Positions 2,286-11,500 of a DNA stretch of 64,000 nucleotides are shown here, piece by piece (positions within the stretch are counted from its first letter, which is position 1; every line of letters begins with the position of its first letter). Under the pieces are notes generated by a model. The model did not search any database. It worked only from the letters and a program-made list of their open reading frames with translations, and had not been told where the DNA came from. Position numbers and translations under genes: made by a program. The stretch is from Dromiciops gliroides (lineage: Eukaryota > Chordata > Mammalia > Microbiotheria > Microbiotheriidae): contig NC_057866.1 in assembly GCF_019393635.1 (NCBI RefSeq), positions 10,736,223 through 10,800,222 of the forward strand, given 5' to 3'.

Positions 2286-2502
2286 CTAGGAGGGAGGGAG
2301 GGGGCCTTGGCTCGGCGAGGAGCCCCCTTGGCAGGTGGGGCTCCTCGTCCCTGGGTGGAGGGGGCAGGGGCCGGGGGAGGGGGCCGGGGAGCCCTTGCGG
2401 GCTGGCTCGGAGCTGCCTAGCTTCATCTTCCGCCGTTTGGGCCAGGGGGGCGTTCTCTACGCTCTTCAGAAAGAAGCCCTCCCTTCTTGCCCCGGTTGAA
2501 GC
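2286..2502 (-). CDS. RPS6KA4: RPS6KA4 last coding exon with nuclear-localisation tail
   Basis: After a ccaccag acceptor the exon encodes FNRGK, then [14 protein letters not shown], then the basic KRRKMKL stretch that serves as nuclear localisation signal in MSK2. It ends with GPLPPS and a TAG at 2288-2286. Reaching these segments needs frame changes near 2500, 2480, 2441 and 2300. The exon lies 4.9 kb from exon 16 because the last intron has accumulated repeats. Confidence 0.88.
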
Positions 2503-8500: not shown

Positions 8501-11500
8501 AGTCGGGCAAAGCCAAAATCGATAATCTTCACTGGGGCTCCAGGGGCCTCATCAGCATACAGATGTTCTGGTGGGTCAGGAGAAGGAGAGAAGGGGTCAG
8601 TGTAGGCTGCCAGTAATCCCCAGAGTCCCCCCCACTTCTGACGTTCCATGTTCTAAGGGCCATCCCATAGTCGGACACTTCAGAGTGGCTAGGGGAGGGA
8701 GGGAAGGGTAAGATGTAAGGTTCAAGGAAGGTCCACGATGGGGCAGGGTTACTTGCTCCCCCATCTCCAGCCGTTCTCAGAACCTTCTTCCGCCTCCAAA
8801 GCCCCTGCCCGGGGGCCGGGGACACAGAGGATGGAGGGACCTCAACCTCCTGCGCTTGAGGTCCCGGTGCACCACCCCGGCCTCTTCATGCATGTAGCTG
8901 ACAGCCGAGACGAGGCTGCGTAGAATCTGGCTGGCCTCCGACTCACTGAAATGCTGCTTCTTGCGGATGTGCTCCAGCAGCTCCCCACCCCTCAGGAGCT
9001 CCAGCACCAGGTATGTGTGGTACTGGGAGGAGAGAGGGGGTCACGGCATCAGCTTCCAGCAACAGCGCCCCACCCGGGGGCTTCCTCTCCCAGACCCATC
9101 AGCTGCCCTGAGCCCCAGCCCCTGCCTGAGGCCCCTGACTGGGCCAGAGATGGGCGGGCAGAGGTTCCCTCTCAAGTGTCCAGGTGGTCCTGACCAACAG
9201 GAGCCACTGAGAGTCCCCGGGCTTTCAGAACCTGCCCATTCTTGCCATCCCCCCCTGTGGCTAAGCCCTGGGCCTCCCCCAGGGCCTGCCTGGAGCCTGG
9301 CTCCCTGCCCACAGAGTGGGGGTGTGCTTGGCTTCTGGGAGGGCCTTAGCAACCCAGACTGGGGCAAGACAGTATCAGGGCAGCTACCCCAACTTCCCAC
9401 AGAGGAAGCACGGACCCACAAACCCACCTTCGAGGGGGCCACTTCAGAGTCACAGACTCTGCAAAGAAATGGAGGCCCCCTCCCCCATCAAACAAGACCC
9501 TCATCCTTGGCAGACGGGGCTCCCAAGGCGACCCAATGACTTCGATGAGGCCAAGTTTCTCCCTGACGCTGAGCCAAATTCAGCCTCTGTTCTTATCTCC
9601 AGGTCCCTGCCCAACCCTTCTTCCAGGGGGCGTGCCCTCCGGGTCCCCGAGTCACTTTACAGCTCCACCCAATGAGACCCCTGCTCCCAGTGGTCACTTT
9701 CCTTTTTTGATGCTGCCAACATGGCAGGTGTGAGCTGTGCCCTGTGCCTTTGTCGTTTCTCTTAGCCAGGACACTCAGTTCCTCTAAGCTCTCCCCGTCC
9801 TGGTCTGGGCTGGTTTCTAGTCTCACCATCCCACCTGCCCTCTGCTGGATCAGCTCCAGGCAAAAAGGGGAAGGGCGGGGGGTGGGGGGAATAAACTTCC
9901 CAGGGGGCCAGAGAGCTAGCGGGCCGACTCCTCCCAGACCCACCCCTCACCCTGTGGCTGTGTTGTGGTGGGGTCATGGTGGGGTCTCACCTGGTTCATT
10001 ATGCACTTCATGGAGTTTCACAACAAGTAGGTGTGACTGGCAAAGCCTCAAGGCTGCTATCTCCCTCTGGGTGTTCACCTCTAGCCTAAAGGGTGGGGAA
10101 GGAACAGGGGGGAGGTAAGGCCATTTTAATGACTTGGTGTCAGTTTCACTTTATTTTAACTAATTATTCTAATTAACTGAGATGCAATTCGGAAAAGTGA
10201 ATTAAGAGCTAAGCTGGGCATCAGGAAAACCTAGGCAAGTCATTCTCAGTGACCTAGTGACCCTCTGAGACTGGAAGACCTTGCAAAGAAGGTGGCAATC
10301 TACATTAGTAAGGGGAGTTACTCACTGGGAACTCTCTATGTCAGTAAAATCACAGGTCCTAAAAAAAAATTGGAGCTAACTAGGTTGCTAAGCGCTGTTA
10401 TTTTCTATACTGCTGAAGGAGAAATTCCGTGCCCTAGGACAAAGCTTCATCACCCCCACCCTAGTTACAACAATGCCAAGCTGCCCCACCCTGCCACGGA
10501 CTCTTCCTACAACTGTCTCAGACCACCACCACCACTGCCCACATACCTCGGCTGAGGATCTTAACAGCAAACTCCTGTCCTCACTCTGCCGCTGGCGACA
10601 GCGGCGACACACAGAGAAGCTACCCTGGCCCAAGGCAGGCTCCGGAGGTCCTAGCTCATAGAGCTGGAAGAAAGGGGAGTCCTGGAAGGAGAAGAAGGCG
10701 GCCAGTTCAGAGCTGCGGGCCCTGCGAGAGTGGGGCCCCAGAAAGCGTGGCACTCATGACGCCCCCAGGGCCACAGAGCCCGTGAGCTTCCCGAGGCCAC
10801 ATCTTCCCCCAGCTCGCTCCCATCCTCACTGGGCTTCGAGAGTCACAGGTTATCTGAGCTGGGCAGGCCCCCAGAGCTCATCTATCTAACCACTCACTTT
10901 ACAGATGAGACAATTGAGGCCCATAGAGAGAAGTGACTTGTCCAAGGTCACAGGGCAAATGAGTGACAGGCCCAAGCCTAGACCCCAGGTTTCCTCTCTC
11001 AGCCCTAACTCTGAGAGAGAGAGACAGAGACAAAGATAGACAGAGACAGGAGAAGGAGGAGAGGGGGGGAGAGACAGAGAGACACATGAGCTGGGTGATC
11101 CAAGCTTGCGGCAGATATCTCACCTGCACCACCAGGGCTGGGACGAGGCCCCACCTTGCCCTTGCACCCTGGTTCCACCAACCATGTCCTGCCCCATGGA
11201 ATCTCCCCACACTCAGCCTCGTCCAAACTTCTCCATTTCTGCCCCAGCTCCCCCATCCTCCCCATCACCAAGGTTCCCAAACTCCATCCGCCCCCCAGCT
11301 CCTCTGTCCCCCTCACTCCACATGTGCAATCAGCCGCCCCGTGTTGTGAATTGTTTCCCAAATGTCCCTTTCCTCCCACCATCACCTGTTTACCTGGGCC
11401 AATGCAAAAGCATGAACACTCGGTCTCCCCGCCTCAAGTCTGCCCCCTCTCCCATCCACCCTCCACACAGCCCCCAAGGTGATCTTCCTAAAAGGATTCT

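Follow-up and report, generated by a model that had tools for sequence, protein, structure and literature searches.

Our analysis indicated that the RPS6KA4 gene of Dromiciops gliroides is most likely intact, and that its reading frame is most probably broken by a patch of about 15 kb (about 2.3 to 17 kb of the window) containing many assembly errors of 1–2 bases, in the exons as well as in the intronic repeats. We put the probability of this at about 0.95. The assembly artefact is the most likely explanation from sequence comparison, though short of proof. The product of RPS6KA4 in this animal is most likely a normal MSK2 with both kinases, some 770–780 residues long. The small indels are present in the sequence, are comparably dense in neutral repeats, and are not accompanied by a rise in substitutions. 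Here, the window means the whole stretch of 64,000 nucleotides that was analysed (C6:10736223-10800222), taken from a chromosome-scale assembly of 3.30 Gb in 17 contigs.

The minus strand of the window between 18431 and 2289 was found to carry RPS6KA4 (MSK2) in 17 exons. The model was obtained with a spliced, frame-aware aligner written for the present analysis, at a working frameshift penalty of 14, and the reference for the shift counts was a human MSK2 sequence. In the shift-allowing model all 16 introns were of the GT..AG type, no in-frame stop was present, and at the working penalty 675 of 772 residues were shared with human MSK2. As expected of an orthologue, the locus resembles MSK2 more closely than it does the paralogue MSK1 over both kinase domains, and MSK1 proper (RPS6KA5) sits elsewhere, at C2:214.77-214.93 Mb. 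PRDX5, TRMT112 and ESRRA were located at 86–96 kb in window coordinates, 22–32 kb past the right end of the window, in what we take, from the human gene order, to be the usual neighbourhood of RPS6KA4. When the frame-adjusted C-terminal half was compared with the PDB, two chains passed the cut-off, and the C-terminal kinase of MSK1 (3kn5, E 2e-106) was the better match. Exon 13 showed PDB kinship, and the C-terminal kinase exons had 52–70% identity to the PDB MSK1. The present gene has the two-kinase layout common to RPS6KA4/MSK2 and its paralogue RPS6KA5/MSK1, agrees exon by exon with human MSK2, and departs from known RPS6KA4 only by its shifts. The single open frame of an RPS6KA4 orthologue was not obtained (28 shifts at the working penalty), which we judge to be assembly error.

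Features of the RPS6KA4 locus of D. gliroides, in window coordinates
Feature	Position	Strand	Observation or evidence
RPS6KA4 exon 1, exact; coding starts at 18431	18377..18431	-	15/18 residues identical, no shift
RPS6KA4 exon 2, exact	18174..18245	-	24/24 identical
RPS6KA4 exon 3, a single shift of +1 (17073-17076)	17066..17285	-	spliced alignment
RPS6KA4 exon 4, exact	16858..16973	-	36/39 identical
RPS6KA4 exon 5, shifted twice by +1 (16586-16589, 16576-16579)	16546..16655	-	spliced alignment
RPS6KA4 exons 6-10, exact	15455-15535, 15261-15364, 14950-15100, 12425-12589, 12167-12295	-	no shift
RPS6KA4 exon 11, 4 shifts	10547..10681	-	spliced alignment
RPS6KA4 exon 12, 1 shift (9994-9997)	9991..10085	-	spliced alignment
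RPS6KA4 exon 13, one +2 shift (8853-8857)	8847..9022	-	spliced alignment
RPS6KA4 exon 14, 4 shifts	8374..8567	-	spliced alignment; PDB MSK1 alignment
RPS6KA4 exon 15, 2 shifts	7808..7969	-	spliced alignment; PDB MSK1 alignment
RPS6KA4 exon 16, 7 shifts	7414..7574	-	spliced alignment
RPS6KA4 exon 17, 6 shifts	2289..2502	-	spliced alignment
Span of 10 SINE copies inside RPS6KA4	3268..15855	.	neutral test; 25 small indels (1-2 bases) over 1,209 bases aligned
Intronic SINE with 5 one-base indels at 8.7% mismatch; of the young copies in the gene, the largest example	6670..6796	+	SINE alignment
Intronic SINE, 3 one-base indels, 5.5% mismatch	14266..14395	+	SINE alignment

All 28 shifts called at penalty 14 were of 1–2 bases: 15 were gains (+1 in 10 cases, +2 in 5) and 13 were losses (−1 in 12 cases, −2 in one). 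Exons 11–17 held 25 of them, in agreement with the earlier note, which had described a conserved RPS6KA4 that is repeatedly frame-shifted, mainly in its C-terminal half. The 11 indel sites named there (six gains and five losses) were all recovered, each within 7 bases, and the exons it called exact (1, 2, 4 and 6–10) were indeed free of shifts. The other three shifts fell in exon 3 (one) and exon 5 (two), which indicates that the N-terminal kinase is also damaged. The total depended on the penalty: it was 28 at 10–14, 23 at 20, 17–19 at 28, and 16 at 40. With MSK1 letters from the alignment of 3kn5 as reference in place of human MSK2, the C-terminal kinase still gave 16 shifts at penalty 14, 12 at penalty 20, and 10 at penalty 28.

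The same aligner found no shift at penalties of at least 14 in ESRRA, PRDX5, or TRMT112 (identities of 392/423, 134/158 aligned, and 92/125), and two portions of CLTC, on C4, were likewise free of shifts (754/757 and 374/375 aligned residues identical). Together these clean controls comprise 1,838 aligned codons with 0 shifts at penalties of at least 14, and the shifts in RPS6KA4 are therefore more than chance. Penalties below 14 produced spurious shifts in the three neighbour genes, for example 6 to 14 in ESRRA, so penalties 4–10 were left out of the counting. The ESRRA model also contained a one-residue mini-exon, which is probably an artefact of the aligner.

A gene that is losing its function starts to collect mutations in its exons, while its introns, neutral all along, go on mutating as before. 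Poor sequence affects introns and exons both. We aligned the SINE copies in 164 kb, window included, to a consensus drawn from these copies. Of 128 matches, the 109 with at least 90 consensus bases were kept (10 inside RPS6KA4 and 99 outside) and the 19 shorter ones were dropped. This tRNA-like family is very dense, with those 109 copies all lying in the window and its flanks, and its density is sufficient for gauging local sequence quality.

Inside RPS6KA4, indels of 1–2 bases in these copies reached 20.7 per kb, versus 4.7 per kb outside (58 in 12,447 aligned bases), and mismatch was 9.8% inside and 8.8% outside. Among the young copies (at most 10% mismatch), 12 small indels were found in 893 bases inside (seven copies) versus 14 in 9,319 bases outside (72 copies), that is, 13.4 versus 1.5 per kb, with mismatch of 7.1% versus 6.1%. 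On permutation of the copies, the observed counts were reached 33 times (all copies) and 26 times (young copies) in 100,000. When runs of ten consecutive copies were taken instead, 4 of 100 reached the observed count, starting at 3268, 3738, 6432, and 6670. The contrast was weaker in the old copies (41.1 versus 14.1 per kb; 1,464 of 100,000 permutations), for which one run elsewhere, from 91273, was equally high. SINEs from 20 other loci were excluded as a control because two of these loci (L023 and L029) overlap RPS6KA4; small indels numbered 14 over the 2,768 bases of their 22 copies, and 2 over the 1,707 bases of the 13 young ones.

A raised number of indels in neutral DNA with no matching rise in substitutions is what consensus error would give, and it was found at RPS6KA4 and repeated at RPS6KA5 (below). 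Some observations count against consensus error. The exact exons 6–10 lie midway along the span, and although 8 of the 10 SINE copies within the gene contain small indels, the copies at 5210 and 5591 do not; the patch is thus uneven. The weaker contrast of the old SINEs, the mismatches in exons 11–17 that lie distant from any called shift, and a clean last exon in RPS6KA5 were counted on the same side.

The earlier note had left two readings side by side, a poor assembly consensus and a recent loss of the C-terminal kinase in this lineage. The former is strongly favoured by our results, namely the SINE indel excess without a rise in substitutions, the intact GT..AG sites, the lack of stops, the shifts in exons 3 and 5, and the like behaviour of RPS6KA5; the latter found no support. 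According to the latter, RPS6KA4 would be decaying as a unitary pseudogene, its C-terminal kinase recently lost and its exons gathering frame-breaking indels. The concentration of shifts in exons 11–17 fits this, as do the lower identity to human in these exons (303 of 347 aligned residues over 1,137 bp, versus 372 of 397 in exons 1–10) and the lack of a second RPS6KA4 copy among the 65 matches listed, none of which exceeded 78% identity outside the window. Even so, we consider such decay very unlikely. Lost selection leaves neutral intronic repeats unaltered, yet these show an equal excess of small indels, and exons 3 and 5 are shifted too. The SINEs outside the gene have 58 small indels per 1,096 substitutions, i.e. 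one per 19. At this ratio the 25 indels of exons 11–17 would have brought about 470 substitutions in 1,137 bp, which is excluded by the protein identity, the splice sites, and the absence of stops. Gains and losses are also about equal in RPS6KA4 and all of 1–2 bases, whereas the outside SINEs include 40 deletions and 4 insertions of at least 3 bases (their small indels being 32 deletions and 26 insertions). RPS6KA4 thus shares with unitary pseudogenes its frame-breaking coding changes and, as far as the listed matches go, its lack of a second copy. However, signs of relaxed constraint (stops, splice loss, proportional substitutions) were not found, protein identity is high, and the SINE comparison showed neutral repeats equally laden with indels rather than gene-specific damage sparing neutral DNA.

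Part of the lower identity in exons 11–17 may come from pairs of opposite indels misread as substitutions. Within 5 codons of a called shift, 26 of 185 residues were mismatched in these exons. At more than 5 codons from one, mismatches were 18 of 162, versus 25 of 397 in exons 1–10; any one of hidden opposite-indel pairs, faster evolution of this half, or a number of base errors might account for these. Very cheap shifts lifted the identity of exons 11–17 to 299/330, but such settings overfit the controls too.

RPS6KA5 (MSK1) on C2 was taken as a paralogue control, with six exons spanning the C-terminal kinase reference. Its first three exons and its last exon had no shift. The other two, C2:214908660-214908850 (L033) and C2:214917640-214917803 (L034), had three shifts each, six in total, and the second of them had an extra codon in addition. 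Shifted codons aside, 256 of 268 residues were identical to the PDB MSK1. In young SINEs at 214901–214919 kb, around the shifted exons, small indels numbered 13 over 1,002 bases (13.0 per kb), and in those at 214879–214890 kb, beside the three clean exons, none in 476 bases. The counts were intermediate at 214890–214901 and 214919–214929 kb (3 in 880 and 4 in 778 bases), so this second patch has no sharp edge; the last exon is clean despite the 4 small indels in 778 bp of young SINEs in its 10-kb stretch. Frameshifted exons and an excess of neutral indels therefore coincide at two unlinked loci, as expected from local consensus error. We attribute it to chance that both MSK genes are affected, because RPS6KA5 spans about 155 kb and is likely to meet a patch.

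It is highly improbable, more so than decay of RPS6KA4, that small indels have truly cost both MSK kinases of this lineage their self-activating C-terminal kinase, in chromosome stretches where such indels arise locally and bring no extra substitutions. The chance is slighter still that the indels are real and come from a locally raised rate of small-indel mutation in the animal, affecting coding as well as neutral DNA. True indel mutation of this local kind, unaccompanied by substitutions, would have the same appearance, and the excess is indeed local, not restricted to exons, and seen again at RPS6KA5. But about 2 indels per 100 bases would wreck two conserved kinases with no other change, although the remaining residues of RPS6KA5 are nearly all those of the PDB MSK1, and a poor consensus needs no known process. 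An alternative exon structure yielding one open frame of about 770 codons, which the earlier note had named as the outcome that would overturn its claim, can be practically dismissed: the best shift-free model needed 20 introns (one non-canonical) against 16, with 2 stops and spurious mini-exons, and retained 603 identical residues versus 675, 72 fewer. Shift-free alignment thus gave no acceptable gene model for the human MSK2 reference at the settings used, and alternative splicing was rejected.

Other causes were also tried and rejected. Homopolymers do not account for the shifts, as 13 of the 25 sites in exons 11–17 lie near a run of at least 3 bases, versus 52% of the 1,137 background positions. 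Nor does high GC content, which was 49–71% in the shifted exons, 53–67% in the exact exons, and 62% in the clean ESRRA region. Neither an intact second copy nor a haplotig was present among the matches listed (the best 61 of 474 candidates scored, in a possibly incomplete genome).

Under the assembly-error explanation, the indels would have arisen during assembly, from a long-read consensus that was under-corrected, low in coverage, or mixed between haplotypes. The lack of homopolymer bias would point to random-indel reads rather than homopolymer-limited ones. It is already well known that indel errors of long reads break gene models. Published work describes residual indels in long-read assemblies that cause frameshifts and make genes look pseudogenised (PMC12007338) and catalogues indel errors in PacBio-based assemblies (PMC5632298). 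The present case resembles these in its patchiness and in the many shifts of 1–2 bases that affect both exons and introns of a gene otherwise well conserved. It differs from known long-read errors in having no homopolymer bias and in having its patches within sequence that is otherwise clean where sampled. Our literature search found no paper joining RPS6KA4 with a marsupial, and RPS6KA4 was absent from the 8 papers listed, of 3,454 bearing on pseudogenes, gene loss, or RPS6KA4.

Two further open frames were seen. At 52805-54274 of the window, on the minus strand, there is a frame of 490 residues that is largely coiled coil, with weak Pfam matches below the cut-offs. From its position in the human gene order, we presume it to be a large exon of CCDC88B; this candidate exon is open throughout, unlike the exons of RPS6KA4. 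On C7:59028280-59029155, minus strand (L019), a frame of 645 residues was 43% identical to the N-terminal kinase of MSK2; among the matches listed it fitted the Pfam kinase model best, and it is perhaps an intronless kinase copy.

A gene-loss screen of the present assembly would score both RPS6KA4 and RPS6KA5 as broken. Comparing the rate of small indels in young SINEs within a suspect gene with the rate beyond it is inexpensive, needs neither reads nor a related genome, and can separate assembly error from gene decay.
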